Shown: positions 3,922-63,438 of the stretch, one piece after another | Layout: every line of letters starts with the position of its first letter | How positions within the stretch are numbered: the stretch's first letter is position 1 | Origin: Microbacterium sp. SORGH_AS_1204 | GTDB lineage: Bacteria; Actinomycetota; Actinomycetes; Actinomycetales; Microbacteriaceae | Direction of reading: 5' to 3' | DNA length: 64,000 nt | Assembly: GCF_030818935.1 (NCBI RefSeq) | Contig: NZ_JAUTBD010000001.1 | Coordinates: 2,666,001-2,730,000, forward strand | Translations under genes and position numbers: made by a program | The notes under the pieces: generated by a model | What the model was told of the DNA's origin: nothing | The model's input: only the letters and a program-made list of their open reading frames with translations | Database searches by the model: none

Positions 3922-5069
3922 AGGCCGTCCACTTCGGCGCCGGCAACATCGGCCGGGGCTTCGTCGGACTGCTGCTGCACGAGGGCGGCTACGACCTCGT
4001 CTTCTCCGACGTCTCCGCGGCGCTGGTCGCGGCGATCAACGACGCCTCCTCGTACACCGTCCACGAGGTGGGCGAGGGCGGCGTCGACAAAGAGGTGACA
4101 AAGTTCCGCGCCATCGACAGCTCGGTGGACGCCGAGGCGCTCATCGACGAGATCGCCACGGCCGACGTGGTCACCACCGCCGTCGGCCCGACCATCCTGA
4201 AGTTCGTCGCCCCGCACATCGTCGCCGGTCTGGCGCTTCGCGACCCCTCCCTCGCGCCGCTGCAGATCATGGCGTGCGAGAACGCGATCGGTGCGACCGA
4301 CCAGCTGCGCGAGCACGTCATCGAGCTCGCCGGCGAGTCGTGGGACGCCCTGGCCGCGCGGGCGGTGTTCGCCAACACCGCGGTCGACCGCATCGTTCCG
4401 GCACAGGCGCAGGGCGGTGTCGACGTCACCGTCGAGCCGTTCTACGAGTGGGCGATCGAACGGGCGCCCTTCGGCGACACCCCGCCGCGCATCCCGGGTG
4501 CGCACTTCGTCGACGACCTCGAGCCGTACATCGAGCGCAAGCTCTTCACGGTGAACACCGGGCACGCCACCACGGCGTACTTCGGCGCGCAGGCCGGCGT
4601 CGAGCGCATCTCCGACGCCCTCGCCGACCCCGCGATCGCCGCGAAGGTGGAGGCCGCGCTCGAAGAGACCAGCGCGCTGCTCGTCGAGAAGCACGAGCTG
4701 GATGCCGCGGTGCAGGGCGAGTACCGCGCGACGATCCTGCGACGCTTCCGCAACGACGCGCTGCCCGACACGGTCTGGCGCGTGGGCCGGCAGCCGCTGC
4801 GCAAGCTCTCGCGGCACGAACGGTTCGTCGGCCCCGCGGCCGAGGCCGTCGAGCGAGGTCTTCCCGTCGACGCGCTCGTCGCCGCGATGGCCGCGGCCCT
4901 GGAGTTCTCGGATGCCGAGGACGCCCAGGCCGTCGACCTGCAGCGGATGCTCCGCGAGCTCGACGCCGACGCGTTCACCGCCGAGGTCACCGGCCTCTCG
5001 CCCGATCACCCGTTGTTCGCCCGGATCGCCGAGATCGTCACGGCCCGTCAGGGGGCTCTCGCGGTCTGA
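3918..5069 (+). CDS. mtlD: Mannitol-1-phosphate 5-dehydrogenase
   Basis: Oxidises mannitol 1-phosphate to fructose 6-phosphate with NAD, feeding glycolysis. The 383-aa protein begins with the Rossmann motif FGAGNIGRGFVG and carries TVNTGHATTAYFG near residue 210, the lysine- and histidine-containing catalytic region of the long-chain mannitol dehydrogenases. Length matches the family (about 380). It starts on the ATG that overlaps the mtlF stop. No mannitol activator (mtlR) is nearby. Confidence 0.96.
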   Translation: MKAVHFGAGNIGRGFVGLLLHEGGYDLVFSDVSAALVAAINDASSYTVHEVGEGGVDKEVTKFRAIDSSVDAEALIDEIATADVVTTAVGPTILKFVAPHIVAGLALRDPSLAPLQIMACENAIGATDQLREHVIELAGESWDALAARAVFANTAVDRIVPAQAQGGVDVTVEPFYEWAIERAPFGDTPPRIPGAHFVDDLEPYIERKLFTVNTGHATTAYFGAQAGVERISDALADPAIAAKVEAALEETSALLVEKHELDAAVQGEYRATILRRFRNDALPDTVWRVGRQPLRKLSRHERFVGPAAEAVERGLPVDALVAAMAAALEFSDAEDAQAVDLQRMLRELDADAFTAEVTGLSPDHPLFARIAEIVTARQGALAV

Positions 5070-5078
5070 GCACCGGGT

Positions 5079-5084
5079 TACCCT
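5079..5084 (+). promoter_or_regulatory. Leaderless -10 (TACCCT) before the hydrolase gene
   Basis: TACCCT fits the actinobacterial TANNNT -10 and ends 6 bases before the GTG start at 5091, the spacing expected for a leaderless transcript. The intervening CGGAGG could instead act as a ribosome binding site. Confidence 0.4.
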
Positions 5085-5090
5085 CGGAGG

Positions 5091-5873
5091 GTGACCGACA
5101 CGACCCCGTCCGGCGCCGGCGGAGCGCCCCGAGCGCCCCGCCGGCGCCGTCGTGTTCTGCGGTGGATCCTCGGGGGCCTGGGCGCCCTCGTCGTGCTGCT
5201 GGTCGCCGGCATCCTGATCTACAGCCAGGTCGGTGTCATGGGAGCCGAAGCCGAACCGCTCGCCGCCGCGCGGGCGAACCCGGGGCTGTCGATCACCGAT
5301 GACGGTGCCGGTATCGTCCTCTCCCCCACGGCCGCGGCGACCGGGCAGGGCCTCGTCTTCATCCCGGGCGCGAAGGTCGAGGCCGAGGGGTACATCGCGA
5401 CCCTCGCCGACACGGTCGTCGGCGACGGCATCACGGTCGTCATCACCAAGCCCTGGCTGAATCTGGCGTTCTTCGACCCGCGTCCCCTGTCGACCTTCAC
5501 CGAGCTGGCCCCCGACGTCACCACGTGGGCCGTCGGCGGACACTCCCTCGGCGGCGTGCGCGCGTGCCAGCTGGCCTCCGACGCCGACGCGTTGGTGCTG
5601 TTCGCCTCGTATTGCGCGAACGACCTCTCGGCATCCGATCTCCCCGTCCTGAGCCTCTCCGGTTCGGAAGACGGCCTGTCCACTCCGCAGAAGATCGCGG
5701 ATGCCAGGAGCCAGCTGCCGGCGACGGCGACCTTCGTCGAGATCCCCGGCGCCTCGCACGCCTCTTTCGGCGCCTACGGCCCGCAGCCCGGAGACGGCCG
5801 GCCCACCGCCGACCCGTCCGAGGTCGACAGCATGATCGCCGAGCAGCTCGCCGGCTTCCTGCCGCGACGCTGA
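5091..5873 (+). CDS. Membrane-anchored alpha/beta hydrolase
   Basis: A 260-aa protein with one N-terminal membrane segment (about residues 24-45, after an Arg-rich stretch), so the hydrolase domain is probably outside the membrane. The fold shows the nucleophile elbow GHSLGG near residue 150, an acidic residue in SGSEDGLSTP and the histidine in PGASHASFGAYG, giving a complete Ser-Asp-His triad. It resembles the small dienelactone-hydrolase-like group common in Actinobacteria; the substrate is unknown. It starts 21 bp after mtlD and may be read through from it, but nothing ties it to mannitol. Confidence 0.8.
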   Translation: MTDTTPSGAGGAPRAPRRRRRVLRWILGGLGALVVLLVAGILIYSQVGVMGAEAEPLAAARANPGLSITDDGAGIVLSPTAAATGQGLVFIPGAKVEAEGYIATLADTVVGDGITVVITKPWLNLAFFDPRPLSTFTELAPDVTTWAVGGHSLGGVRACQLASDADALVLFASYCANDLSASDLPVLSLSGSEDGLSTPQKIADARSQLPATATFVEIPGASHASFGAYGPQPGDGRPTADPSEVDSMIAEQLAGFLPRR

Positions 5874-6345
5874 GCGGGAGCCCTCGCCGCCTGGTCGCGG
5901 TGCACCGACCGCCGCGGACCCGCGACGGACGACCGGCGGAACGAGCGCGGCGGCTCCGTGCCGCCCGACCCGAGCTCTGATGCGCGCGCCACGCGGCTCT
6001 CTCGACGCTGCCTCGAGCCGACCTCGACCACAGCTCACGGGCGCCGTCGACCCCGGCTCGCGGGCGCCGTCGACCCCATCGCGGTGAACGGAAGGAGCCG
6101 TCGTGCAAGGGCCGTCGTCTCGCACGGGCCCCGGCGAGAAACTACGCAGTTCCTAACCAGTAGTGAACTAGGTAGTTCCTCCACTCCCTGGAAACGCCCG
6201 CTATTCCTACGATTCAAAGAGCCGGTCCTCGTCTGTTCCTAACCACCGGGAAAGCACCGGAACACGTCCGCTTCTCGAATCCGCCCTCCCGTCGGCGACG
6301 ATTCGTCGACCGACGCGGCGCCGAGCGTCGCGCGAAAGGGCCAAG
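5874..6345. other. 472-bp non-coding region upstream of the pilus locus
   Basis: No credible gene. The first 260 bases are GC-rich and contain a direct repeat of GCGCCGTCGACCCC (around 6042 and 6065). From about 6135 the composition drops to clearly AT-richer sequence, the likely promoter and control region of the pilus genes. Confidence 0.6.
6140..6245 (+). promoter_or_regulatory. Candidate control region of the pilus operon
   Basis: An AT-richer block with an 11-base direct repeat GTTCCTAACCA at 6149-6159 and 6235-6245, and an inverted pair AACTAC (6140-6145) and GTAGTT (6172-6177). TACGAT at 6208-6213 could be a -10 element. The adhesin start lies 100 bases downstream. The regulator is unknown. 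Confidence 0.35.
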
Positions 6346-19098: not shown

Positions 19099-20229
19099 TC
19101 AGCGCCGGAAGCCCTCCGAGATGATCTCGATGAGTTCCTCGCGCTCCTCCACCGGCAGGAACGCTCCGGCGGCGGCGTTGAGCTGGAACGCCTCGAGGTC
19201 GTCGAGGTCGTACTCGAACGCCTGCGCCAGCAGCCCCAGCTCGCGGGTCAGGGTGGTGGCGCTCATCAGGCGGTTGTCGACGTTCACGGTGACCGAGAAG
19301 TCCAGCTGGTAGAGCAGGTCGAACGGGTGCGCGTCCATCGTGTCGCCCCACGCCGTGACGGCCCCCGACTGCAGGTTCGACGTCGGCGACAGCTCGAGCG
19401 TGATCTCGCGATCGCGCACCCAGCGGGCCAGGTCGCCGAAGGTGACCTGCACCTCTTCGCCCTCGCGCGAGACGACGTCGAGGTCGTTGGCGATGCGCAC
19501 GCCGTGGCCGAGCCGCAGGGCGCGCCCGTCGATGAGGGCGGAGCGGATGGATGCCAGACCGGCACCCTCTCCGGCGTGCACGGTCGTGGGGAAGAACTGC
19601 GCGGCCAGGTAGTCGAACGCCTCGCGATGACGCGACGGCAGGAAGCCGTCTTCGGGGCCGGCGATGTCGAAGCCGACCACGCCGCGTCCGCGCCACGAGA
19701 CGGCGAGCTCGGCGATGTCACGCGCGTTGTCGTTGTGGCGGAGCGCGGTGAGCAGTTGACCGACGCGGATGTCGTGACCGCGCGCGTCGGCGGCATCCTC
19801 TCCCTGCTCGATACCCTCCTGCACGGCGTCCACGACCTCGTCGAGGCTGAGGCCGCGGGTGAGGTGCTGCTCGGGCGCCCAGCGCACCTCGCCGTAGACG
19901 ACGCCGTCGGCGGCGAGGTCTTCGACGAACTCCTTCGCCGTGCGCACGAGTCCCTCGCGCGTCTGCATCACGCCGACGGTGACCGAGAACTTCTCGAGGT
20001 AGTCCTCGAGCGAGCCGCCGTCGATGTGGTCCGAGAACCAGGCCTCGAGCCCCTTGGCGTTGTCGGCGGGCAGGTCGAGGCCGATCTCGTCGGCGAGCTC
20101 GAGCACCGTCTGGGGGCGCAGCCCGCCGTCGAGGTGGTCGTGCAGCGAGACCTTCGGCAGGTCGGCGATCTTCGTGCGGCCGATGCGGAACTCGTCGGAT
20201 GCCACGGTGCTCTTCTTTCCGGATGCCAT
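19099..20229 (-). CDS. add: Adenosine deaminase
   Basis: Deaminates adenosine and deoxyadenosine to inosine forms (376 aa, cytoplasmic, Zn-dependent). Motifs: LHDHLDGG (two metal-binding His), HAGEG (metal His and catalytic Glu), RLGHGVRI, and ELSPTSN; the second metal-site Asp lies in VNVDNRL. It is the last gene of the nucleoside operon; its ATG overlaps the deoA TAA by one base. Confidence 0.96.
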   Translation of the reverse strand: MASGKKSTVASDEFRIGRTKIADLPKVSLHDHLDGGLRPQTVLELADEIGLDLPADNAKGLEAWFSDHIDGGSLEDYLEKFSVTVGVMQTREGLVRTAKEFVEDLAADGVVYGEVRWAPEQHLTRGLSLDEVVDAVQEGIEQGEDAADARGHDIRVGQLLTALRHNDNARDIAELAVSWRGRGVVGFDIAGPEDGFLPSRHREAFDYLAAQFFPTTVHAGEGAGLASIRSALIDGRALRLGHGVRIANDLDVVSREGEEVQVTFGDLARWVRDREITLELSPTSNLQSGAVTAWGDTMDAHPFDLLYQLDFSVTVNVDNRLMSATTLTRELGLLAQAFEYDLDDLEAFQLNAAAGAFLPVEEREELIEIISEGFRR

Positions 20230-40913: not shown

Positions 40914-41401
40914 TTCCTCAACCCTCGCCAAGAACTCAGGGCGGAGTAATAGGAATGCCCGCCAGCGATAAGAATACGGCCTGAAAGTTTCGACAAGGTG
41001 ACGCGCCCGAGATTCTTTGGTATAGATTGCGCCTCCGTTGCGGTCGTCGGCGACGACGCGGCCGGGTCACCGCCCGTGCGAACGGAGTCGCATCCCGCCG
41101 ACGGAGGCAGTCGCACCCCGCCGCCGCCCGTGTTCCCTCCGGTTTCGGGGAATGGAACGGCCACCGCCGCGTTCACTACACTCAGAAGTGCAACAACGTG
41201 CTCCGGGGTCGGTGGGAATCCGAACCGGCGGTGACAGTCCGCGAACCCCTCCGCGTCATGCGGTGGGGCCGATCCGGTGGAACTCCGGAACCGACGGTGA
41301 TGCGACGGGTAATTCGTCGCTAGTCCGGATAGGAGGCAGCACGGAGGGCGTTACGCGCCATCCCGCTGATCCTGCCCCGACACCTCGGGAAGGACAGGGA
41401 A
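40914..41401. other. 488-bp divergent region holding the FMN riboswitch
   Basis: Non-coding. The first 130 bases include AT-richer sequence near 40945-41030 that should hold the subtilisin promoter; the second half is the riboflavin leader with the FMN riboswitch. Confidence 0.7.
41197..41343 (+). promoter_or_regulatory. FMN riboswitch (RFN element) controlling the rib operon
   Basis: Conserved blocks are in the right order: ACCGGCGGT and AGTCCGCGA, then GATCCGGT, ACCGACGGT and TAGTCCGGAT. The closing helix pairs CGTGCT (41197-41202) with AGCACG (41338-41343). Between the switch and the ribD start a small hairpin CCCGA...TCGGG (41376-41389) abuts the AAGGA ribosome binding site, so control of translation initiation is likely. 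FMN binding should shut off ribD-ribE-ribBA-ribH. Confidence 0.95.
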
Positions 41402-43128: not shown

Positions 43129-44393
43129 GCCTGTCCACCATCCCCGAGGCCCTGGAGGCCCTGCGTCAGGGACGCCCGATCCTGGTCGCCGACGACGAGA
43201 ACCGTGAGAACGAGGGCGACGTCATCATCTCGGCGCAGCTCGCCACCCCCGAGTGGCTGGCGTGGACGGTCCGCTGGTCGAGCGGTTACGTCTGCGCCCC
43301 CATGCCCGCCGAGTGGGCCGACCGGCTCGACCTGCCGCCCATGGTCGAGGTGAACCAGGACGCTCGCGGTACCGCCTACACCGTGAGCGTCGACGCCGCC
43401 TCGGGCGTGACGACCGGCATCAGCGCCTCCGACCGTGCCCGCACGCTCAACGTGCTCGCCGACCCCGCATCGGTGCCGACCAGCGTCATCCGCCCCGGAC
43501 ACGTGCTTCCGCTGCGTGCCGTCGACGGCGGTGTGCGCGAACGCGCGGGCCACACCGAGGCCGCCGTCGACCTCATGCGCCTCGCCGGACTCGAGCCGGT
43601 CGGTGCGATCGCCGAGGTCGTCGCCGAAGACGGCAGCATGATGCGCTTGCCCGGGCTGTTCGAACTCGGCGAGCGCGACGGCATCCCGGTCATCACGATC
43701 GAGCAGCTCATCGCCCACCTGAACGAGACCGACCCGCTGCCCGCCGCTGCTCCGGCGCGGCGCCGCGTGAGCCTGCGCGCCGAATCCAACGTGCCCACCT
43801 CGCACGGAACCTTCCGCTTCCTCGCCTATAAAGATCGTGTGACGGGCACCGACCACCTCGCCGTCGTCTCCGGAGACCTCACCGAGAAGGCGCCGCTCGT
43901 ACGCGTGCACTCCGAGTGCCTGACCGGAGAGGCGTTCGGCTCGCTGAAGTGCGAGTGCGGTCCCCAGTTGGATGCCGCGCTCGACACCATCGACCGCGAC
44001 GGTGGCATCGTCATCTACATGCGCGGCCACGAGGGACGCGGCATCGGCCTCATCAACAAGCTGCGCGCGTACAACCTGCAGGAGCGCGGGCTCGACACGG
44101 TCGACGCCAACCTGGCCCTGGGGCTGCCCGCCGATGCCCGCGACTACGCCGCCGCCGCCGGCATCCTCGCCGACCTGGGCGTCGAGCAGGTGCGTCTGCT
44201 CACGAACAACACCGACAAGGTCGCGCAGTTGCGCAGCTTCGGCCTCGACGTCGTCGAGCAGGTGCCCCTGCTCGTGGGCGTCGGCCCCAACAACCACCAG
44301 TACCTCGAGACGAAGCGCGACCGCATGGGTCACGTGATCGCCGAGGACGACCTGCGCGACGCGCTCGCGCACATGAAGGAAGAGAGCGTCTGA
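43125..44393 (+). CDS. ribBA: Bifunctional DHBP synthase/GTP cyclohydrolase II
   Basis: Makes both riboflavin precursors (422 aa): the 4-carbon unit from ribulose 5-phosphate and the pyrimidine from GTP. The N-terminal half has DDENRENEGD (Mg and substrate acids) and GHTEAAVDL; the C-terminal half has the Zn motif HSECLTGEAFGSLKCECG and RGHEGRGIGL. I start at ATG 43125, where the ATGA overlaps the ribE stop. Confidence 0.96.
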   Translation: MSLSTIPEALEALRQGRPILVADDENRENEGDVIISAQLATPEWLAWTVRWSSGYVCAPMPAEWADRLDLPPMVEVNQDARGTAYTVSVDAASGVTTGISASDRARTLNVLADPASVPTSVIRPGHVLPLRAVDGGVRERAGHTEAAVDLMRLAGLEPVGAIAEVVAEDGSMMRLPGLFELGERDGIPVITIEQLIAHLNETDPLPAAAPARRRVSLRAESNVPTSHGTFRFLAYKDRVTGTDHLAVVSGDLTEKAPLVRVHSECLTGEAFGSLKCECGPQLDAALDTIDRDGGIVIYMRGHEGRGIGLINKLRAYNLQERGLDTVDANLALGLPADARDYAAAAGILADLGVEQVRLLTNNTDKVAQLRSFGLDVVEQVPLLVGVGPNNHQYLETKRDRMGHVIAEDDLRDALAHMKEESV

Positions 44394-53599: not shown

Positions 53600-53612
53600 G
53601 TAAAACATTTAC
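53600..53612. promoter_or_regulatory. GTAAA-N3-TTTAC inverted repeat before the importer operon
   Basis: GTAAAACATTTAC is a perfect 5-bp inverted repeat, in an AT-rich island of a GC-rich gap, 37 bases before the operon start. It overlaps a possible -10 TACATT (53610-53615). The LacI-type regulator encoded at the end of this operon is the natural candidate to bind here. The rest of the gap (53395-53580) shows nothing. Confidence 0.4.
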
Positions 53613-53648: not shown

Positions 53649-54770
53649 ATGTCACACCTTCGCACCGCCCCGCTCCCCGCTCCCTCGTCGCCCACTCGCA
53701 CCGCGCGCCGCCGCCGCCGGGGCGTCACCGTCGGCGCGGCCGGCGCCCTGCTCCTTGCCCTGACCGTCAGCGGCTGCGCCTCGCCCGCCGCATCGTCCGG
53801 CGACGCATCGTCGGACTCGTTCGGCACCGCCAGCGTCGCCCTCAGCTGGATCAAGAACTACGAATTCGCCGGCTACTACTTCGGCGAGGACGACGGCGAC
53901 TACACCGACGCCGGGTTCGACGGCGTCGACCTCATCGCCGGCGGCGGCAACACCAACTCGTGGGACCTCGTCCTCGGCGGTCAGGCGCAGATCGGCCTCG
54001 CGTCCGATCTCACCGGCATCACCGGGGCGATCAACGACGGCGCCGGCCTGAAGATCATCGGGGCCCAGTTCGTCAAGAACCCCGTGGGCTTCGTCTCGCT
54101 CGCGGCCAACCCCATCCGCACCGTCGACGACCTGAAGGGCAAGCGCATCGGCGTCGACGCGGGCGGCAAGCTCGCCGTCGAAGCGGTACTCGAGGCCAAC
54201 GACCTGCCCTCCGACACCGTCGAGTTCGTCTCGGTGCCCAGCGGCATCGACCCGCTCATGAACGGTGAGGTCGACGCCCTCATCGGCTTCCTGACCAACT
54301 ACCCGATCGCGGTCAAGAACGCCGGCGGCGACGTCGTGACCATGTCGTTCGCCGACGCGAACTACGCCCAGTTCGGAGACGCGGTCGTGGTCAGCGAAAA
54401 GGCGCTCAGCGAGAACCGCGACGAGCTCAAAGCCATCATGAAGGCGAGCATCGAGGGCTGGAACACCGCCCTCGACAAGGGCACGGATGCCATCGCCGAC
54501 ATCGCGATGAAGCACGGCGGCGCCGACAACGGCCTCGACCGCCAGCTGCAGGTCGACTCCGCGGGCGTGCTGCCCTCGTTCATGCTCACCAAGGACACCG
54601 TGAAGAACGGCATCTTCACGCTCACGCCCGATCTCATCGACCAGGCGGTCTCCTCGCTCGCCGCCGCCGGCATCACGGCCGACCCGAGCATGTTCGACAC
54701 CTCGCTCCTCGAAGAGGTGTACGCCGAGAACCCCGACCTGATCCCGGGCTTCACCGTCCCGGCATCCTGA
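53649..54770 (+). CDS. THI5/NMT1-type ABC substrate-binding lipoprotein
   Basis: Extracytoplasmic receptor (373 aa) and first gene of a seven-gene operon. After an Arg-rich start comes the lipoprotein signal ending LTVSGC. The mature part is a THI5/NMT1-like domain: LSWIKNYEFAGYYFGEDDGDY, the motif DDLKGKRIGVDAGG, and GEVDALIGFLTNYPI. Relatives bind flat heterocycles such as thiamine pyrimidines (ThiY) or riboflavin (RibY), or sulfonates and nitriles. No TPP or FMN riboswitch precedes it, so thiamine or riboflavin uptake is not indicated. ATG 53649 follows ACGGAGG. Confidence 0.9.
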   Translation: MSHLRTAPLPAPSSPTRTARRRRRGVTVGAAGALLLALTVSGCASPAASSGDASSDSFGTASVALSWIKNYEFAGYYFGEDDGDYTDAGFDGVDLIAGGGNTNSWDLVLGGQAQIGLASDLTGITGAINDGAGLKIIGAQFVKNPVGFVSLAANPIRTVDDLKGKRIGVDAGGKLAVEAVLEANDLPSDTVEFVSVPSGIDPLMNGEVDALIGFLTNYPIAVKNAGGDVVTMSFADANYAQFGDAVVVSEKALSENRDELKAIMKASIEGWNTALDKGTDAIADIAMKHGGADNGLDRQLQVDSAGVLPSFMLTKDTVKNGIFTLTPDLIDQAVSSLAAAGITADPSMFDTSLLEEVYAENPDLIPGFTVPAS

Positions 54771-54808: not shown

Positions 54809-55606
54809 ATGAGCCCGACACCTGTGCGCGGCGTCCTCTACGGCGCCGCGGGCCTGGCCGTGCTGCTGGTCGCCTGGCACATCGTCGCCGTCACGGTCTA
54901 CCAGCGCGCCAACGGCAGCGCCGGGCCCGTGCCTCCCCCGTTGCCCGTCTTCGCCCGCGCACTGTCCGGGCTGTTCGGCGGCGCCTACGCCGAAGGCCTC
55001 GCCGCGACCGCCGGTGCGGCCCTGACCGGGTACGCCCTCGCGGTGGTGATCGCGCTGGTGCTCGGCATCCTGGTCATGATCGCCCCCACTCTGGGTCCGT
55101 TCGCCTCGCAGCTGGGGGTCGTCGCGGCGTGCGCGCCGGCGGCGGCGATCGCGCCCATCGTGGTGCTCCTGAGCCCCTCGGGCAGCCGGGCCGTCAGCGT
55201 GGTGCTGGCGCTGCTGGCCGTGGAGTTCCCGCTCGTGGTGGGGGTGCTGCTGGGGCTTCGCTCCGCTGCGCCCGCGCAGATCGATCTCGTTCACGCGTAC
55301 GGCGGCGGGGCCCCGATGGCGATCCGCAAGGTGCGGGTGATCTCGGCCATTCCGGCGCTGCTCGCCGCGTTGAAGCTCGCGGCTCCGGCGGCGTTCCTCG
55401 GAGCCATGACGGGTGAATTCTTCACCGTCGGCGTCGACGAGGGTGCCGGCCGACTGCTCATCTCGCAGCAGTACGTCGGCGATTACACCGGCATGTGGGC
55501 GATCGCCCTGCTGGCCACTGTCGTCTCGGCGTCGGGCTACGGCGCGATCGCCGTGCTCGGCCGTCTTCTCGCACCCTGGACGGCACACACCGGGAGCACA
55601 CGATGA
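54809..55606 (+). CDS. ABC importer permease (TauC/SsuC/ThiX type), first
   Basis: Membrane subunit (265 aa, about six helices) of the importer. The coupling loop is DLVHAYGGGAPMAIRKVRVISAIPALL, the EAA motif of this permease class, and ALKLAAPAAFLGAMTGEFF follows. It is 38 bp after the receptor gene (AGAGAGGACGCC upstream of ATG) and overlaps the second permease. Confidence 0.88.
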   Translation: MSPTPVRGVLYGAAGLAVLLVAWHIVAVTVYQRANGSAGPVPPPLPVFARALSGLFGGAYAEGLAATAGAALTGYALAVVIALVLGILVMIAPTLGPFASQLGVVAACAPAAAIAPIVVLLSPSGSRAVSVVLALLAVEFPLVVGVLLGLRSAAPAQIDLVHAYGGGAPMAIRKVRVISAIPALLAALKLAAPAAFLGAMTGEFFTVGVDEGAGRLLISQQYVGDYTGMWAIALLATVVSASGYGAIAVLGRLLAPWTAHTGSTR

Positions 55607-56433
55607 CCCGCACGCCCGCCTGGGTCTGGACGACCCTGTGCACGCTCGCCACCGCGCTGCTGCTCCTGCTGGGCTGGCAGCTCGCGATCACCCTCTCCGG
55701 ACTCAGCCCCTACCTCGCGAAGACGCCCATCGACGTGTGGCGCTACCTCTTCGTCGACGGGGGCGGCAAACCCTTCGACGCCGGCGAACGACGCGCCGCG
55801 CTCGCACCGATGATCGGTGTGACGCTCGGGCACAGTGCTGTCGGACTGCTGCTCGGCGTCACCGCCGGGTTCATCGGCGCGGTCGCCCTCACCGCCTCGC
55901 GCGCGCTGCGCTCGATCTTCCTGCCGCTCGCCCTGCTGCTGCAGACGGTGCCGCTCATCGCCATGGCTCCGGTCATCTACGCCGTCTTCGGCTCGGGCAT
56001 CCTCACCGCGGCGGCCGTGGCTGCGGTGGTGACGTTCTTCCCGCTGCTGATGAACATCGGCGCGGGTCTCACCTCGACCTCCGCCGAGACGGTCGACCTC
56101 GTGCGCGCGTACGGCGGTGGACGATGGACGCTGCTGCGGTTCGTGCAACTGCCGGCATCCCTCCCCTCGCTGTTCGCCGGGCTGAAGCTGGCCGCCCCCG
56201 CGACCGTGTCGGCGGCGACCCTGTACGAGTTCCTGTTCTCGTTCGAGGGTCTCGGCGCCAACCTGTTGACGAGCAAGTCGTACTCCGACTACGGCCTGCT
56301 GTGGACGCTCGTGGTGATCACGGTGCTGCTCTCGCTCGCCGCCTACGGCCTGGTCGTCGCGGCTGAGACGCTGCTGCTCGCCGGCCGCTTCCCCCCGCGC
56401 GCTTCGACCCCCGCCCAGAAAGGCCACGCATGA
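55603..56433 (+). CDS. ABC importer permease (TauC/SsuC/ThiX type), second
   Basis: Second membrane subunit (276 aa). Its coupling loop DLVRAYGGGRWTLLRFVQLPASLPSLFAGLKLAAPA closely parallels the first permease, so the transporter is a heterodimer of related subunits; most relatives use a homodimer. Start ATG 55603 overlaps the previous stop, and its stop overlaps the ATPase start. Confidence 0.88.
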   Translation: MTRTPAWVWTTLCTLATALLLLLGWQLAITLSGLSPYLAKTPIDVWRYLFVDGGGKPFDAGERRAALAPMIGVTLGHSAVGLLLGVTAGFIGAVALTASRALRSIFLPLALLLQTVPLIAMAPVIYAVFGSGILTAAAVAAVVTFFPLLMNIGAGLTSTSAETVDLVRAYGGGRWTLLRFVQLPASLPSLFAGLKLAAPATVSAATLYEFLFSFEGLGANLLTSKSYSDYGLLWTLVVITVLLSLAAYGLVVAAETLLLAGRFPPRASTPAQKGHA

Positions 56434-57188
56434 CCGAGTCCGGTGTGCACATCCGCGCCCTCACGCGCCAGTTCGCGGCCCGCGGCGGTCCCGTCGTCGC
56501 GGTGGACGGCGTCGACCTCGACACCCCGCGCGGGTCGTTCCTGTCGCTGCTCGGGCCGTCGGGCTGCGGCAAGTCGACGGTGCTGCGCATGCTCGCGGGC
56601 CTCGATACCCCCACGTCGGGCACCGCGACCGTCAATGACCTCACCCCCGCAGCCCTCCGCCGCACCCACGCTTTCGGCATCGCCTTCCAAGACCACGCAC
56701 TGCTGCCCTGGCGCACCGTCGAGCGCAACATCGCCCTGCCGTTCGAGATCGCCGGTCTCCCCGTCGACGAGGACTGGGTGAACGAGCTGCTTCATCTCGT
56801 GCGACTCGAGCAGTTCGCGAAATCGCGCCCGTGGCAGCTGTCGGGCGGCATGCGCCAGCGCGTGGCGATCGCTCGGGCACTGGCCCTGCGCCCGAGCGTG
56901 CTGTTCCTCGACGAGCCGTTCGGCGCCCTCGACGACGTCACCCGCCAGCGCCTCAACGTCGAGCTGCAGCGCCTGTGGAGCGAGCAGCGCGCGACCACCG
57001 TGATGGTCACGCACGGGGTGCAGGAGGCGGTCTTCCTCAGCGACCAGGTCGCGGTGATGAGCCCGCGCCCCGGTCGCATCAAGGAGGTCATCGACATCGA
57101 CCTGCCCCGGCCTCGCACGCTCGAGATGACGAGCACTCCCGAGTTCCACGCCTACGTCGACCGCGCCAGCGCGCTCCTGTTCCACTGA
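56430..57188 (+). CDS. ABC importer ATP-binding protein
   Basis: Energy subunit (252 aa) of the importer, nitrate/sulfonate/taurine class. Walker A GPSGCGKSTVLRML, Q-loop AFQDHALLPWRTVERNI, signature LSGGMRQRVAIARAL, Walker B VLFLDEPFGALDD, H-loop MVTHGVQEAVFLSD. Coupled to the permease by ATGA; the folE-like gene follows after 19 bp. Confidence 0.93.
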   Translation: MTESGVHIRALTRQFAARGGPVVAVDGVDLDTPRGSFLSLLGPSGCGKSTVLRMLAGLDTPTSGTATVNDLTPAALRRTHAFGIAFQDHALLPWRTVERNIALPFEIAGLPVDEDWVNELLHLVRLEQFAKSRPWQLSGGMRQRVAIARALALRPSVLFLDEPFGALDDVTRQRLNVELQRLWSEQRATTVMVTHGVQEAVFLSDQVAVMSPRPGRIKEVIDIDLPRPRTLEMTSTPEFHAYVDRASALLFH

Positions 57189-57207: not shown

Positions 57208-57810
57208 ATGACCGACCTCATGCCCGTCGCCACCACGCACGCCACCCCCGATCTGGATGCCGCCGAAGCGGGCATCCGCATGTACATGCGCGCGATCGGC
57301 CTCGACACCGACCACCCCACCCTCGTCGACACGCCCCGACGGGTCGCGCACGCCGGCCTCGACCTGTTCGCAGGGATGGACGGCGACCCGCATCGCGCGC
57401 TCGGCGGCGGCGAGCCCATCGAGGGCGTCTACCCCGGACCCGTCGCCGTGCACGACATCCCCTACTCCTCGATGTGCGAGCATCACCTGCTGCCGTTCCA
57501 GGGGGTGGTGTCGGTCGTCTACCTTCCCGACCGCTCGTTGGCGGGCATCGGCGACTTCGACGCGATGCTACGTGTGCTCGCCGCCCGCCCGCAGATGCAG
57601 GAACGCCTGGCAGACCAGATCGCCGCGGTCGTCTCCGAGACGCTCGACGCGAAAGGCGTGCTCGTGAGGCTGACCGCGCAGCACGCGTGCATGTGGGCGC
57701 GCGGCGAGCGCACCGTCGGCTCGACGGCGTTCTCGCTCGCCTCGCGAGGCGTGTACGACACCGATCCCGCGGCACGGGCCGAGGCGCGGGTGCTGCTCGG
57801 ACTGCACTGA
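57208..57810 (+). CDS. Divergent GTP cyclohydrolase I (FolE) homologue
   Basis: FolE-fold protein (200 aa). Zinc and catalytic residues are present: CEHH (Cys90, His92, His93), His159 and Cys161 in AQHACMWARG, and RPQMQERL. The segment that in canonical FolE reads GLSKxxR is GIGDFDA (113-119): the Ser, Lys and Arg holding the GTP triphosphate are replaced by Gly115, Asp116 and Ala119, and the Lys after DTPxRxA is His48. I infer that the ring-opening chemistry may remain but the substrate is probably not a nucleoside triphosphate. Location inside an importer operon, away from folate genes, agrees. It could instead be an inactive paralogue. Annotation as folE would be misleading. Confidence 0.88.
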   Translation: MTDLMPVATTHATPDLDAAEAGIRMYMRAIGLDTDHPTLVDTPRRVAHAGLDLFAGMDGDPHRALGGGEPIEGVYPGPVAVHDIPYSSMCEHHLLPFQGVVSVVYLPDRSLAGIGDFDAMLRVLAARPQMQERLADQIAAVVSETLDAKGVLVRLTAQHACMWARGERTVGSTAFSLASRGVYDTDPAARAEARVLLGLH

Positions 57811-57811
57811 C

Positions 57812-58606
57812 ATGCCCGAGTCGACCGAGATCGCGCGCATCGCCGATCGGGACGGGGTCGCACTGGTGCCCGTCGGAGCGACCGAACAGCACGGCCCCCA
57901 CCTTTCCGTGACCACCGACACGGTCATCGCGGCGGCGTTCGCGGCGGCGGCGTCCGCCCGCGTCGCGAAAGACGTCGCGACCTGGGTGCTCCCGGCCATA
58001 CCGTTCGGCTATTCCCCCGAGCACGCCGGGCGGCCGGGCACCATCAGCCTCTCGCCCGACACGCTGCTCGCCCTGGCCGACGACATCGGCCGCGGCGTCG
58101 CCGCGAGCGGCATCCGTCGCCTGCTCTTCGTCAACGGCCACGGCGGCAATCCCGAGCTGCTGCACGTCGCATGCCGTCAGCTGCGGGAGCGGCGGGGACT
58201 CGCGGCGTTCGCCGTGCACGTGCCGGGGCTCCCGCTGCCGCCCGAGCTCACCGAGGGGGTGACGACCGGCGACCTGGACGCCCACGCGGGCCACTACGAG
58301 ACGAGCGTGATGCTCTCCCTCGACCCCGCCGCCGTGCGAAGGGATGCCGCACGCGCCGACGGTCTGGCCGAGGTCACCGCGGCCGCCGCATCGCTCACCC
58401 GCCCGTTCGGAGCGGTGAGCGTTCCGTGGCACGTCGACGACCTCTCGGCGTCGGGCGTCATCGGCGATCCCACCACGGCCGACGCCGGGTGGGGCGCGCG
58501 CGCGTTCGCGGCGCAGGCGGCGACTCTGGCCGACATCGTCCGCGCCGTGGCGGCCCATTCCCTTCCGCCGGAGTGGGTACACTCGCGGCGGGGGGATGCC
58601 GAATGA
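57812..58606 (+). CDS. Creatininase-family metal-dependent amidohydrolase
   Basis: Hydrolase (264 aa) of the creatininase fold, which includes creatinine amidohydrolase, the formamidopyrimidine deformylase ArfB of archaeal flavin synthesis, and MftE. Metal ligands: Glu25, His27 and Asp36 in GATEQHGPHLSVTTD, plus NGHGGN and the Glu of HAGHYET. It begins one base after the folE-like stop, so the two are certainly co-expressed. A plausible inference is hydrolysis of the formamide or amide made by the FolE-like enzyme; this is untested. The regulator gene overlaps its stop. Confidence 0.9.
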   Translation: MPESTEIARIADRDGVALVPVGATEQHGPHLSVTTDTVIAAAFAAAASARVAKDVATWVLPAIPFGYSPEHAGRPGTISLSPDTLLALADDIGRGVAASGIRRLLFVNGHGGNPELLHVACRQLRERRGLAAFAVHVPGLPLPPELTEGVTTGDLDAHAGHYETSVMLSLDPAAVRRDAARADGLAEVTAAAASLTRPFGAVSVPWHVDDLSASGVIGDPTTADAGWGARAFAAQAATLADIVRAVAAHSLPPEWVHSRRGDAE

Positions 58607-59604
58607 CCGACGGTCCAGGCCGGACGCCGACCCTCCAAGAGGTGGCGACCGAGGCGAAGGTCAGCCTCGCCACCGCCAGCAACGCCCTCACCGGCAACCG
58701 CGGGGTGAGTCCGAAGCTGCGTGATCGCGTGCTCGAGGCGGCGCAGCGGGTCGGGTACCCGCGCGCGTCGGGGCGTCGACGCACCGACCGGACGACGGTG
58801 GGCATCGTGCTGCCCGACGTGCGGCATCCGGCCTATGCCGAGCTGGCGCACGCGTTCGAACGCGAGGGCGCCCGCCGCGACTGGTCGCTGGTGCTCGCCG
58901 GGTCGGACTACCAGCCCGACATCGAGCTCGACGCGCTCGAGAACCTCGTCCGCACCACCGACGGAGTGCTTCTGTCGCCGTCTCGACCGCCGCGCTCGGG
59001 CGTGCATCGCCTGCAGGCCAGCCCCGTGCCGATCGTCGCGTGCGACGAGCCCGCCGACTCGGCGCTCATCGGCGGGTGGGTGCGCTCCGACAACTTCGGC
59101 GGCGGACGCGTCGCCGCGCACCATCTGGTCGATGCCGGCGGCACCCGCTTCGCGATGCTCGGCGGCGAGGGGTATCTGCCGTCGACGAAGGAGCGGCGCG
59201 AGGGCTTTCTCGCAGGCCTCGCCGACCGCGGCTTCGCCGCCGACGACGTGCTCATCATCGGCGAGGACTACGGCATGGACGGCGGGCAGAGCGCCATGGC
59301 CGAGCTCCTCGAGACCGACGCCGACGTCGACGCCGTCTTCGCCGTCAGCGACCTGCACGCGGTGGGGGCGTTCTTCCGCGCGCTGCAGGAGGGACGCTCG
59401 GTGCCGGAAGACCTGCTGCTGTGCGGTTTCGACGGCGTCGGCTGGACGCGGCAGATCTCGCCCACCATCACCACCGTCCGCCAGGACTGGGGCAAGATCG
59501 CCGCCCGCGCGATGGACATCCTCGACACGCTCATGTCGGGCGGCGAGGGCGACCGGGCTGTCGTCCCCGTCGAGCTGGTGCCGGGCGAGTCGACGCGGCG
59601 CTGA
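58603..59604 (+). CDS. LacI-family transcriptional regulator
   Basis: A 333-aa repressor with helix-turn-helix TLQEVATEAKVSLATASNALTGNRGVSP (residues 9-36), the hinge region, and a periplasmic-binding-protein-like effector domain (VGIVLPDVRHPAYAELAHAF ... CGFDGVGWTRQISPTITTVRQDW). It ends the importer/FolE-like operon and likely controls it in response to the imported compound. LacI proteins usually sense sugars, but purine-sensing members (PurR) exist. ATG 58603 overlaps the previous stop. Confidence 0.92.
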   Translation: MTDGPGRTPTLQEVATEAKVSLATASNALTGNRGVSPKLRDRVLEAAQRVGYPRASGRRRTDRTTVGIVLPDVRHPAYAELAHAFEREGARRDWSLVLAGSDYQPDIELDALENLVRTTDGVLLSPSRPPRSGVHRLQASPVPIVACDEPADSALIGGWVRSDNFGGGRVAAHHLVDAGGTRFAMLGGEGYLPSTKERREGFLAGLADRGFAADDVLIIGEDYGMDGGQSAMAELLETDADVDAVFAVSDLHAVGAFFRALQEGRSVPEDLLLCGFDGVGWTRQISPTITTVRQDWGKIAARAMDILDTLMSGGEGDRAVVPVELVPGESTRR

Positions 59605-59852: not shown

Positions 59853-61325
59853 TTACGCGTAGGGGTTGGCCGTCAGCGTGTACTTCGTCTGCAGGTACTC
59901 GTGGATGCCCTCGTCGCCGCCCTCGCGGCCGAGGCCCGACTGCTTCCAGCCGCCGAAGGGGGCCGCGGCGTTGGAGACGACGCCGACGTTGAGGCCCATC
60001 ATCCCCGTCTCGAGCTTGTCGATCATGCGCTGACCGCGGGCGAGCGACTCGGTGAAGACGTAGGAGACGAGGCCGTACTCGGTGTCGTTGGCGAGGCGCA
60101 CGGCGTCGTCCTCGTCGTCGAACGGGATGATCGCGAGCACCGGCCCGAAGATCTCCTCGCGCAGGATGTCGCTGCCCGGCCGCACGTCCGACACCACGGT
60201 CGGCTCGAAGAACGTGCCGGGGCCCTCGACCGGCGACCCGCCGGTGGTGACCGTGGCGCCGCGCTCGACGGCATCCCCCACGAGGGTCTTGGCCTTGTCG
60301 ACCGCGCGGTCGTCGATCAGGGGGCCGATCTGCACGCCCTCCTCGGTGCCGCGACCGATCTTCATGCCCTGCACCCGCTCGGTGACGCGGCGGGTGAACT
60401 CCTCGACGACGCTGCGCTGCACGATGAAGCGGTTGGCGGCGGTGCAGGCCTGGCCGATGTTGCGGAACTTCGCCAGCATCGCGCCCTCGACCGCCTTGTC
60501 GAGGTCGGCGTCGTCGAACACGACAAAGGGCGCGTTCCCGCCGAGCTCCATCGACGTGCGAAGCACCCCGGGCGCGGCCTGCTGCAGCAGCTTCACGCCC
60601 ACGGGGGTCGACCCGGTGAACGAGAGCTTGCGCAGGCGCGGGTCGGAGATGATGCGCTCCGACACCGGGCCGGTGTTCGTGGTGGTGACGACGTTGACCA
60701 CGCCCGCCGGGAGGCCGGCATCCTGCAGGATCTGCGCGAAGAACAGCGTGGTGAGCGGTGTGAGGGTGGCGGGTTTGATGACCACCGTGCAGCCGGCGGC
60801 GAGCGCCGGTGCGATCTTGCGGGTCGCCATGGCGAGGGGGAAGTTCCACGGCGTGATCAGGTAGCAGGGCCCCACCGGGTGCTGCGTGACAATCATGCGG
60901 CCCGTGCCCTCGGGGTTCGCGCCGTAGCGGCCCTGGGTGTGGGCGGTGACCTCGCTGAACCAGCGCAGGAACTCGCCGCCGTATCCGACCTCACCACGCG
61001 CCTCAGCGAGGGGCTTGCCCATCTCGAGCGTCATCAGCAGCGCGACGTCTTCCTTGCGTTCCTGCAGCAGGTCGAAGGCGCGGCGGAGGATCTCGGCACG
61101 CTCGCGCGCCGGGGTCGCCGCCCACGACGGGAACGCGTCGGCCGCGGCATCCATCGCGGCCACGCCGTCATCGACGGAGGCGTCGGCGATCTCGAGCAGA
61201 ACGTCGCCGGTGGCCGGGTCGTTCACGGCGACGGTCGTGCCGCCCGCGGCCGCACGCCACTCGCCGTTGATGAGCAGACCGGTGGGCACGGATGCCAGCA
61301 GCTCGCTCTCGCGCGGATCAGTCAT
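59853..61325 (-). CDS. gabD: Succinate-semialdehyde dehydrogenase (NAD(P)+)
   Basis: Aldehyde dehydrogenase (490 aa) of the GabD/SSADH group, converting succinate semialdehyde to succinate for the TCA cycle. Cofactor site TPWNFPLAMATRKIAPALAAGCTVVIKPA, TGSTPVG, general base in MELGGNAPFVVFDDADLD, catalytic Cys in GQACTAANRF. ATG 61325 has AGGAGG upstream; the longer in-frame reading runs into repeat sequence. It follows the hydroxylase gene, so the two may share a role, though substrate assignment within ALDHs is uncertain. Confidence 0.88.
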   Translation of the reverse strand: MTDPRESELLASVPTGLLINGEWRAAAGGTTVAVNDPATGDVLLEIADASVDDGVAAMDAAADAFPSWAATPARERAEILRRAFDLLQERKEDVALLMTLEMGKPLAEARGEVGYGGEFLRWFSEVTAHTQGRYGANPEGTGRMIVTQHPVGPCYLITPWNFPLAMATRKIAPALAAGCTVVIKPATLTPLTTLFFAQILQDAGLPAGVVNVVTTTNTGPVSERIISDPRLRKLSFTGSTPVGVKLLQQAAPGVLRTSMELGGNAPFVVFDDADLDKAVEGAMLAKFRNIGQACTAANRFIVQRSVVEEFTRRVTERVQGMKIGRGTEEGVQIGPLIDDRAVDKAKTLVGDAVERGATVTTGGSPVEGPGTFFEPTVVSDVRPGSDILREEIFGPVLAIIPFDDEDDAVRLANDTEYGLVSYVFTESLARGQRMIDKLETGMMGLNVGVVSNAAAPFGGWKQSGLGREGGDEGIHEYLQTKYTLTANPYA

Positions 61326-61493
61326 GAGTCCTCCTGGATCGGGGCGGGGTTCCTCGCCCATTCTTCTCAGCGCGCGGACGCGTGCCGATATACGTTGCGT
61401 ACAAGGCGCCCGGTGTGCTCGCCGCGGTGGCCAGCAGGACGGGCCCGGGCCCGGGGCAGCGCCGGAGTGGGGGGCAGCGCCCCCTCGGCCGCT

Positions 61494-61560
61494 CGATAAA
61501 CGCCCATCCGAGCGAGACACGACGCGTGCCGACGTTTCTCACTCGACGGAGCGTTTATCG
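61494..61560. repeat. ATAAACGC palindromic element, copy 2
   Basis: CGATAAACGC (61494-61503) and GCGTTTATCG (61551-61560), perfect 10-bp arms, with a weaker inner pair. The right arm contains the TAA stop of the hydroxylase gene, so this copy doubles as its 3' end and possible terminator. Confidence 0.7.
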
Positions 61561-63438
61561 CGAGGGGCCGGAGCCGGCCGCGACGCGCGTAGCCGCCGGC
61601 TCGGCGGATGCCGGGTGCGCCGCCATCGCCCCGGCGAGGAATCGCTCGAGCCCGGCGGGGTCGGTCAGCGGCAGCACGTGGGCGACGTACTGATCCGGCC
61701 GCACCACCACGACCGCCCCCTCGGCGCCGATGCCGCGCTCGACGAAGATGTCGCTGGTCGTCCAGGCCGAGGGCGCTGCGGCGAAGACCTTCTCGAGGTC
61801 GGTGAGGCCGAGCGGGCCCGACCGCGGCCGGAACAGCGCCGGCACCTCGACGACGTCCTCCCAGCGCCCGGGGAAGATCGCCTTCACATCGAACACCGCG
61901 TCGAGGTCGGCGCCCTCGGGCGTGAAACGTTCGACGATCCGGTGCGCCTCCGCCGCCCATTCCGCCAGCGCCGAGCCTGCGGCATCCGCGAAAACATAGA
62001 TCCGCCACCGCCCGTCGGCCTTCGCGTGATGCCCGAGGTGCACGGGGTTGCCGTCGCACACCCGCACGACCTCGGCGCTTTTGAACCGCTTGCCGACGGG
62101 GAATCCGGATGCCAGCTCCGCCGCCGCGTCGCCCGAAACGATCGCGGACGGGGCGTACTGCGTGCCGAAGCCGGAGGGGAACTCGGCGGTGGCGAGGTAG
62201 TACGTCGCGAGCTCGTCGGGGTCGGTGATCTCGCCGGGCTTACGGGCCATGAGCGCCGACCACTCGCGGTCGAAGTCGATGAGCTGCTGGGCGACGGGTC
62301 GGCGCTCGGCGTCGTAGGTGCGCAGCAGATCGGCGGGGGCGAGGCCGGTGAGCACGTGGCCGAGCTTCCAGCCGAGGTTGAAGCCGTCTTGTATAGACAC
62401 GTTCATGCCCTGCCCGGCCTTGGCGCTGTGCGTGTGGCAGGCGTCTCCAGTGAGGAAGACGCGGGGGTTGTCGAGGTCGTCGACGAACTGATCGGTCACC
62501 CGGTGGCCCACCTCGTACACGCTGTGCCAGGCGACCTGCCTCACGTCGATCGTGTAGGGGTGCAGGATCGCGTTCGCCCGGGCGATCACCTCCTCGAGCG
62601 GCGTCTGGCGCACGCGGTGATCGTCGTCTTCCGCGACCTCGCCGAGGTCGATGTACATGCGGCTGAGGTACCCGCCCTCGCGCGGGATGTGCAGGATGTT
62701 GCCGGCCACGGCGTTGATCGCGCACTTGATGCGCCAATCGGGGAAGTCCGTCTCGACGAGCACGTCCATCACGCCCCACGCGTGCCGGGCAGCGACCCCG
62801 ACGTGCGTGCGGCCGATCGCCTGGCGCACGCCGCTGCGCGCGCCGTCGCAGCCGACGACGTACCGTGCGCGGATGGTCCGCTCTCCCGTCGCCGCGCGCA
62901 CGCGCACCTCGACGGCGTCGACACCCACGGCGAGGCCGAGGAACTCGACGCCGTAATCGGGAGTGATGCGCGCGGGGCCGTTCGCGGCGGCCTCGGCGAA
63001 GTAGTCGAGCACCCGCGCCTGGTTGACGATGAGGTGCGGGTACTCGCTGATCTTGTACGCGTAATCCTCGGTGCGGGAGTGGCGCACGATGCGGTCGGGG
63101 TTCTCGGGGTCGGGGGCCCAGAAGTTCATCCAGCCGATGTTGTACGCCTCGGCGGTGATGCGGTTCGCGAACCCGAAGGCCTCGAAGGTCTCGACGCTGC
63201 GCGGCTGGATGCCGTCGGCTTGGCCGACGGCGAGGCGCCCGTCGCGCTTCTCGATGATCCGCGTGGTCAGCTGCGGGAACTGCGACAGCTGCGCCGCGAG
63301 CAGCATGCCCGCGGGGCCCGAGCCGACGATGAGCACGTCGACCTCGTCGGGGAGCTCCGCCGGCCTGTCGATACCGGTGCCGGCCGCGTTCTGCACGCGG
63401 GGGTCGCCCGAGACGTAGCCGTGATGGTGGAACTGCAT
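61555..63438 (-). CDS. FAD-dependent aromatic hydroxylase (3-hydroxybenzoate 4-monooxygenase/phenol 2-monooxygenase type)
   Basis: Flavoprotein monooxygenase (627 aa) hydroxylating a phenolic ring with NADPH and O2. Motifs: VDVLIVGSGPAGMLLAAQLS (FAD fold, residue 34), VVGCDGARSGVRQAIG (the DG motif), LTGDACHTHSAKAGQGMNVS (FAD GD motif), and a C-terminal thioredoxin-like domain from about 430. Length and domain layout match 3-hydroxybenzoate 4-hydroxylase (MobA) and phenol hydroxylase rather than the shorter PobA class. The start lies opposite an IclR regulator, which likely controls it. The last residues are encoded inside a palindromic repeat. Confidence 0.88.
   Translation of the reverse strand: MQFHHHGYVSGDPRVQNAAGTGIDRPAELPDEVDVLIVGSGPAGMLLAAQLSQFPQLTTRIIEKRDGRLAVGQADGIQPRSVETFEAFGFANRITAEAYNIGWMNFWAPDPENPDRIVRHSRTEDYAYKISEYPHLIVNQARVLDYFAEAAANGPARITPDYGVEFLGLAVGVDAVEVRVRAATGERTIRARYVVGCDGARSGVRQAIGRTHVGVAARHAWGVMDVLVETDFPDWRIKCAINAVAGNILHIPREGGYLSRMYIDLGEVAEDDDHRVRQTPLEEVIARANAILHPYTIDVRQVAWHSVYEVGHRVTDQFVDDLDNPRVFLTGDACHTHSAKAGQGMNVSIQDGFNLGWKLGHVLTGLAPADLLRTYDAERRPVAQQLIDFDREWSALMARKPGEITDPDELATYYLATAEFPSGFGTQYAPSAIVSGDAAAELASGFPVGKRFKSAEVVRVCDGNPVHLGHHAKADGRWRIYVFADAAGSALAEWAAEAHRIVERFTPEGADLDAVFDVKAIFPGRWEDVVEVPALFRPRSGPLGLTDLEKVFAAAPSAWTTSDIFVERGIGAEGAVVVVRPDQYVAHVLPLTDPAGLERFLAGAMAAHPASAEPAATRVAAGSGPSR

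Follow-up and report, generated by a model that had tools for sequence, protein, structure and literature searches.

A rebuilt FolE copy of some Microbacterium and Herbiconiux, with part of its phosphate grip lost, hints at an undescribed way of opening imported purines

The active sites of GTP cyclohydrolase I (FolE) are formed between three subunits (PMC4005822). In the passages of that source on the Thermus enzyme, K134, R137, R183 and R64 contact the phosphates, S133 touches the 2',3'-hydroxyls of the ribose, E150 binds N1 and N2 of guanine, H177 protonates N7, and H110 works on the ribose ring and possibly on C8/N9. For the Escherichia coli enzyme, the same source states that H179 promotes cleavage between N7 and C8, and that its replacement abolishes activity (PMC4005822).

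A FolE-like enzyme working beside a separate deformylase would share with the archaeal ArfA/ArfB pair the division of ring opening and deformylation between two enzymes (PMC9478397). By analogy, the closest precedent for such a pair is BrbF of Sinorhizobium, a creatininase homologue that deformylates a GTP-derived formamidopyrimidine nucleotide, and whose bacterial ring-opening cyclohydrolase partner (BrbG) is described, in the part of the source that deals with it, as still undiscovered (PMC9478397). The source adds that creatininases act on cyclic amides and that two more distant BrbF homologues could not replace BrbF (PMC9478397). At our locus, as with BrbF, a creatininase-family formamidase would act after the guanine imidazole ring has been opened; BrbF, likened here by description only, makes a riboflavin precursor from a nucleotide, whereas our pair sits in an uptake module and its opener is FolE-like (PMC9478397).

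The window that we analyzed is a stretch of 64,000 nt (G000:C1:2666001-2730000) within the single-contig, 3.7-Mb genome of Microbacterium sp. SORGH_AS_1204. It contains a module of seven genes in the order NMT1-type binding protein, two permeases, ATPase, FolE-like protein, creatininase-family hydrolase and LacI regulator (Table 1). The same order is seen in 11 of 11 further distinct genomes read (Microbacterium and Herbiconiux), where Herbiconiux L006 has an SDR gene inserted between the hydrolase and LacI genes and the L007 contig begins inside the binding-protein gene. Before counting, we removed rows L002 and L010 (the window itself) and L013, L040, L041 and L044 (from the genomes of L006, L007, L003 and L005); L006 and L049 are one contig, and L061 and L180 are one region. 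Genes for PEPCK, an aldehyde dehydrogenase and a phenol hydroxylase flank the module in the window and in its close Microbacterium relatives, and none of these neighbours was found at the Herbiconiux loci or at the divergent Microbacterium loci L050 and L051. Because the flanking genes differ between close and divergent carriers, the module is a unit of its own.

Table 1. Features of the uptake module, with positions counted from the first nucleotide of the window. The start of permease 2 is an ATG overlapping permease 1 and was chosen by us.
Feature	Position (nt)	Strand	Evidence or occurrence
Putative LacI operator, core GTAAA-N3-TTTAC of a conserved inverted repeat	53600-53612	.	36 nt before the importer's first gene
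NMT1/THI5-type substrate-binding protein, ABC importer	53649-54770	+	PF09084, 109 bits
ABC permease 1	54809-55606	+	PF00528, 31.6 bits
ABC permease 2	55603-56433	+	PF00528, 82.5 bits over 55600-56430
ABC ATPase	56430-57188	+	PF00005, 110 bits
FolE-like protein, 200 aa	57208-57810	+	PF01227, 158 bits (cut-off 27)
Ser87 codon (E. coli position 107)	57466-57468	+	Arg in 64 of 67 other Microbacteriaceae FolE
GIGDFDA, residues 113-119, replacing GLSKxxR	57544-57564	+	Present in 12 of 12 clade members
Creatininase-family hydrolase, predicted formamidase	57812-58606	+	PF02633, 221.8 bits
LacI-family regulator	58603-59604	+	PF00356 and PF13377

An inverted repeat lies directly upstream of the module's first gene, with the longer form AACGTAAA-N3-TTTACGTT in relatives, and is present in all 11 distinct genomes that have the upstream stretch (12 aligned rows, window included). 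Its core, GTAAA-N3-TTTAC, occurs at exactly one site per genome, at the module, in 10 of the 11 module-bearing genomes searched; the contig of the 11th begins inside the substrate-binding-protein gene. The reversed control pattern gave one site, in 1 of 11 genomes. No second operator site was found in these 10 genomes and, consequently, no extra pathway gene is contributed by a wider regulon. Judged from these sequences, LacI probably binds the inverted repeat and controls the module. The best NCBIfam profile of the regulator is CytR, at 142 bits and far below the cut-off of 436.

The FolE-like protein was aligned with E. coli FolE from MG1655, numbered as in the literature (Met = 0). S135, K136, R139 and K68 of the E. 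coli enzyme become G115, D116, A119 and H48, while R65, Q151, E152, H112, H113, H179, C110, C181 and R185 are all conserved, so that the protein has C90, H92, H93, Q131, E132, H159 and C161 as its zinc ligands, catalytic histidines and guanine-binding Gln-Glu pair. These comparisons bear out much of what the earlier note had described, namely the position of GIGDFDA within its reading frame, a gap-free 17-residue stretch from the Gly to RPQ, the exchange of Ser, Lys and Arg for Gly, Asp and Ala and of the DTPxRxAK Lys for His48, and the retention of the zinc ligands C90, H93 and C161 and of the other catalytic histidines (here H92 and H159). The note had also counted the Ser as a triphosphate contact; in the Thermus enzyme, as described in PMC4005822, this Ser contacts the ribose hydroxyls and not the phosphates. 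Its claim that the triphosphate-binding residues are lost holds by half. Of the four basic residues that contact the phosphates in Thermus FolE (PMC4005822), two are gone, with Asp116 and Ala119 occupying the sites of a Lys and an Arg, and two are kept as R45 and R165.

Two Asp residues, Asp116 and Asp118, are new to the FolE-like protein. It scores 136.8 bits on the TIGR00063 equivalog (cut-off 181.6), a profile that does not discriminate here, since the host's canonical FolE (178.1 bits) and the folate-operon protein L014 (131.7 bits) also fall below the cut-off. A monomer model (mean pLDDT 88.5) has Listeria, Mycobacterium and Thermus FolE as its closest solved folds (Z 23.8, 23.6 and 23.3, rmsd 1.5-1.6), with 4uqf the best match (Z 23.8, rmsd 1.6, 185 residues aligned) and a QueF-like protein the first non-FolE match (Z 14.1). 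Compared with GTP cyclohydrolase I (PF01227, TIGR00063), the protein shares the T-fold, the zinc Cys/His/Cys, the catalytic His, the Gln-Glu pair, R65 and R185, but has no Lys or Arg at positions 68, 107, 136 and 139, has Asp116 and Asp118 instead, and is encoded in an importer operon, not in a folate operon.

We next place these substitutions against the family baseline, for which the GIGDFDA clade (12 members) was set beside 67 Microbacteriaceae FolE from outside it. The 67 consist of the host's own protein (L001), 26 of the best 30 query-like loci and 40 hand-picked loci, a non-random subset from a FolE search that matched 390 of 398 genomes. All 67 have Gly at position 135. Position 136 is basic in 44 (37 Arg, 7 Lys) and non-basic in 23, position 139 is likewise basic in 44 (41 Arg, 3 Lys) and non-basic in 23, and both are non-basic in 6. 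The Lys of DTPxRxAK at position 68 has a basic counterpart in 4 proteins and a non-basic one in 63, and position 107 is Arg in 64. The host's folate-operon FolE carries GLGALPR. The six proteins without both the 136 and 139 basic residues, L144 among them, all adjoin folP, folB and folK and are therefore presumably working folate enzymes; consequently, losses within GLSKxxR alone prove no new substrate, and we reject the charge loss as such a proof. The family survey warns that GLSKxxR alone is a poor basis for inferring a change of substrate. Across the family, the absence of Ser135, the frequent loss of Lys136 or Arg139 and the presence of Arg107 make it possible that phosphate binding has been relocated, for example in L014, L015, L034, L144, L158 and L170. 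Arg107 is absent from the E. coli, Thermus and Mycobacterium rows.

Within the clade, position 136 is Asp, 139 is Ala and 107 is Ser in 12 of 12 members, and position 68 is never basic. Positions 135, 136 and 139 of GIGDFDA are invariant in all 12, so the segment is no isolated oddity. None of the 12 clade members has Lys or Arg at 68, 107, 136 or 139, a state that recurs in one of the 67 others (L144); the remaining family members have one such residue in 5 cases, two in 32 and three in 29. The stronger sequence argument is this joint loss, including that of Arg107 (Ser87 here), together with the two new Asp residues; position 107 presumably lies near the phosphates. The clade keeps the zinc ligands, H112, Q151 and E152 in 12 of 12 and H179 in 10 of 12, with Gln at the H179 position in L045 and L046. 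Gln also stands at the catalytic His179 position in two other family FolE, L039 and L156.

In a quick IQ-TREE of 84 rows, run with no bootstrap, the 12 rows form one clade (SH-aLRT 100) on a stem of 1.33 changes per site, a length that can mislead placement, and the clade nests (98) with seven further FolE of the family, of which five show Lys136 replaced by Ala. GxGDFDx thus marks a clade, which answers a check that had been proposed for it. Paired with three close Microbacterium counterparts, the window's FolE-like gene has dN/dS values of 0.116-0.133, and with three distant ones 0.253-0.340, compared with 0.152-0.521 for the hydrolase and 0.052 and 0.110 for PEPCK. The gene is therefore under purifying selection (0.12-0.34), and plain decay is rejected on the same values.

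The nearest named relatives, 92-93% identical, are from Microbacterium testaceum NS283, Microbacterium sp. Leaf151 and M. hydrothermale. At E <= 1e-60, the FolE-like protein has matches in 8 of 198 Microbacterium genomes, counting that of the window. A second genus contributes 3 of its 16 genomes, Herbiconiux moechotypicola among them, and these three alone supply the other clade members in the family FolE search (398 genomes). A class-wide search of 394 genomes (E <= 1e-44) gave no match beyond the window's own. A DNA scan for the G-x-G-D-F-D motif matched in 16 of 396 phylum genomes, and of the 10 loci examined among these only the window's own is FolE-like. On plasmids, 242 records match FolE, all with less than 60% identity.

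The canonical folE that the earlier note had suggested seeking was found elsewhere in the genome, in a folate operon at G000:C1:3133806-3134354, between ftsH and folP, folB and folK, with a phosphoribosyltransferase gene preceding ftsH (Pfam: Peptidase_M41/AAA, Pribosyltran, Pterin_bind, FolB, HPPK). FolB at least accompanies folE at 17 of 17 other folE loci tested (one read twice), and no FtsH, FolP, FolB or FolK match was found at 6 of 6 module loci tested or in the window. The paralogue is real, conserved and unusual, and the GLSKxxR argument built on it is weaker than claimed. Of the proposal that the substrate has changed and the gene has not decayed, the conserved paralogue (dN/dS 0.12-0.34), its long branch, the canonical folE elsewhere and the importer/hydrolase operon speak in favour; its derivation from the charge of GLSKxxR suffers from Lys136, Arg139 and both being non-basic in 23, 23 and 6 of 67, and from L144, a protein devoid of all four basic residues although its gene belongs to a folP-folB-folK operon, which therefore leaves room for GTP use by the FolE-like protein as well. 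What carries the case for a new substrate is the module, together with the combined loss of basic residues; its main evidence, the genomic context, is indirect.

The hydrolase downstream scores nearest to MftE and not to ArfB. Its NCBIfam scores are 161.8 bits for MftE (TIGR03964, cut-off 172), 97.4 for creatininase (TIGR04448, cut-off 235), 55.5 for IolN (cut-off 245) and 21.1 for ArfB (NF033501, cut-off 180). By hand mapping, the 12 hydrolase rows retain the equivalents of creatininase E34, H36, D45 and H120, and all 12 have Gly in place of E122; the five are metal-ligand positions of creatininase. A creatininase in the strict sense is not supported (97.4 of 235 bits, Gly at the E122 position), a role as MftE in mycofactocin formation is rejected (161.8 of 172 bits, and no mycofactocin radical SAM protein over cut-off in the genome), and identity with ArfB finds no support at 21.1 of 180 bits. 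The pair thus differs from ArfA/ArfB in a hydrolase with only 21 bits on the ArfB profile and in an ArfA that is not known to be homologous to FolE. For the hydrolase, the monomer model (pLDDT 78.3) has creatininases as its solved matches (Z 21.3, rmsd 3.0); ArfB and other formamidases are absent from its list of PDB matches, which proves nothing. The fold models of the FolE-like protein and the hydrolase agree with their families, and neither model shows function. Two plasmid loci, L084 and L085 (Klebsiella and Ruegeria), combine a creatininase-family gene with RidA, an amidohydrolase, an FAD oxidoreductase and an importer binding protein, and these gene sets might represent another N-heterocycle pathway.

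The importer is of the NMT1 type, having a PF09084 binding protein, two permeases and an ATPase, and the best solved relative of its binding protein is a formylaminopyrimidine-binding protein (3ix1, E 1.8e-7). NMT1/THI5-like genes under xanthine riboswitches have been tied to purine degradation and not to thiamin (PMC7373994). Our module shares with these purine-linked importers the binding-protein family and the purine neighbourhood of its relatives, but differs in having no xanthine riboswitch in the window and in being probably regulated by LacI. At gathering score, Rfam finds nothing in the window but an FMN riboswitch, and control by a xanthine/NMT1 riboswitch, for which no such match was found there, is rejected.

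Of 296 class genomes, 44 encode relatives of the binding protein (E <= 1e-40), and the window's genome is one of these. We read 20 importer loci fetched from class genomes and 6 from the plasmid collection (317 matching records), using eight queries, seven purine- or urea-catabolism enzymes and the PucR regulator, and counting any match at 1e-10. Purine genes lie near importer relatives at 19 of 22 loci and at 1 of 4 further ones (L078-L080, L082), hence at 20 of 26, and the same queries find nothing at 13 FolE loci that do not belong to the module or at 12 loci of the module itself (one duplicate; 11 distinct genomes, window left out), numbers that are limited by queries taken from the counted loci and by a control from one family. 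A single adenine-deaminase/urease arrangement, repeated, makes up 11 of the 22 loci. The neighbours include a xanthine-dehydrogenase-type Mo-hydroxylase, adenosine, adenine-like and guanine-like deaminases, and allantoate amidohydrolase. The last exceeds its cut-off, as do adenosine deaminase and a cytidine/guanine-type deaminase in Pfam; the Mo-hydroxylase domains have XdhA as best profile but stay under its cut-off, and an adenine-deaminase C-terminal domain lies beside urease subunits with TIGR01178 under its cut-off. At L081, PucR and adenosine deaminase lie beside the importer. Among four roseobacter/paracoccus importer relatives, three are without purine genes and three have lipid, sulfatase and sugar neighbours. 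Within the 64-kb window, the eight queries gave a single match, a weak adenosine-deaminase-like one (E 4e-10) on the minus strand at 19570-20169, which is 33 kb away from the module. Module carriers have a Mo-hydroxylase in 11 of 11 cases and non-carriers in 15 of 21; it was rejected as a discriminator on these counts, and an oxidative purine route may well coexist.

Taken together, we read the FolE-like gene as a FolE paralogue with a new function, part of a self-contained uptake module that is probably controlled by LacI and opens purine rings, an interpretation of sequence and context to which we give somewhat less than an even chance. In its more specific form, held tentatively and at much the same odds, the FolE-like enzyme would be a guanosine (or guanine) cyclohydrolase I that opens imported purine rings by hydrolysis alone, served by its own importer and a creatininase-family formamidase. 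The importer would take up a guanine-type purine, with guanosine as first candidate, followed by deoxyguanosine or by guanine, free or modified. Since Zn-Cys-His-Cys, His and Gln-Glu are retained, we predict the same first step as in FolE, in which the enzyme would add a zinc-activated water at C8 and open the imidazole ring to a formamidopyrimidine, with no triphosphate needed. The loss of basic residues, the Asp in their place and the adjoining importer lead to the prediction of an imported, probably unphosphorylated substrate. Given a separate formamidase next door, the FolE-like enzyme is predicted to stop at, or to release, the formamidopyrimidine, from which the creatininase-family enzyme would split off formate to give a diaminopyrimidine (a ribosylamino one if the sugar is retained). 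The overall process would be a hydrolytic, oxidant-free opening of the purine ring for nitrogen or precursor salvage. Gln for H179, the residue that promotes N7-C8 cleavage, in L045 and L046 fits a stop at the formamidopyrimidine, but L039 and L156 have Gln too. E. coli His179 mutants reportedly make the formamide intermediate.

The purine neighbours of importer relatives (20 of 26 loci) count for purine import. Against the model count the absence of any purine gene beside the module (0 of 12 module loci), the purine-poor roseobacter/paracoccus relatives, the retained equivalents of R65 and R185, the nearness of the hydrolase to MftE rather than to ArfB, and the failure of the two distant BrbF homologues to replace BrbF (PMC9478397).

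Instead of a purine, the importer may bring in another cyclic amidine or heterocycle, such as a pterin, a hydantoin- or creatinine-like compound or the thiamin pyrimidine, which the FolE-like and creatininase-like enzymes would open stepwise. This is unlikely, though it draws on several observations: creatininases act on cyclic amides (PMC9478397), relatives of the hydrolase in Klebsiella and Ruegeria keep company with amidohydrolase, RidA, oxidoreductase and importer genes, the best solved relative of the binding protein binds formylaminopyrimidine, and some importer relatives have no purine neighbours. The invariance of Q151/E152, the guanine-edge contact, in 12 of 12 clade members argues against it, as do the purine genes near most actinobacterial importer relatives.

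Slightly less likely still, in our judgement, is that the substrate is still GTP (or GMP or GDP), with the FolE-like protein as an additional cyclohydrolase whose reaction ends at the formamidopyrimidine nucleotide, which the creatininase-family formamidase would then take over. This would be a bacterial equivalent of ArfA/ArfB, or of BrbG feeding BrbF. The genome already has RibA and a canonical FolE, an ABC importer and a LacI regulator are hard to explain for a cytoplasmic GTP route, and Asp116 and Ala119 stand where Thermus FolE contacts phosphate with Lys and Arg (PMC4005822). Yet the FolE fold and its chemistry residues are kept, as are R65 and R185, a folate-operon FolE without the four basic residues exists (L144), BrbF is a creatininase homologue whose partner cyclohydrolase is described as undiscovered (PMC9478397), and a RibA gene lies in the same window (43779-44267). 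Because RibA is present, riboflavin supply is rejected as the main role, though kept as a rival. A moonlighting or decayed FolE with no catalytic role is highly improbable: Gln replaces H179 in 2 of 12 members and such replacement kills the E. coli activity (PMC4005822), but the gene is under purifying selection, its zinc and guanine residues are invariant, it is co-conserved with six other genes, and L039 and L156 of the same family also have Gln at H179.

If the purine ring-opening reading is true, FolE chemistry has been recruited for nutrient use instead of cofactor synthesis, purine opening can dispense with oxygen and molybdenum, and the module encodes an undescribed purine catabolic or salvage route. 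It would also offer a natural precedent and candidate type for the cyclohydrolase preceding BrbF in rhizobia, as that step is presented in PMC9478397. Even with GTP as the substrate, an uptake operon that pairs a GTP cyclohydrolase I with a separate deformylase seems new; in the open-licence literature, judged mostly by titles, we found no title describing such an operon or chemistry.

Several neighbours of the module are recorded here in their own right. An FMN riboswitch (41195-41345), with a RibA-domain gene downstream, lies about 9 kb before the module. Herbiconiux L006 has RbsD/FucU-family and DUF5996 neighbours (4829-6219), and L051 has an FMN-reductase family gene after LacI (5195-5761; the assignment was tested on this locus) with a look-alike in L050 (10523-11089), all absent at the close Microbacterium loci. 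In the window, genes of the aldehyde dehydrogenase and phenol 2-monooxygenase families follow the module on the minus strand (59853-63438).
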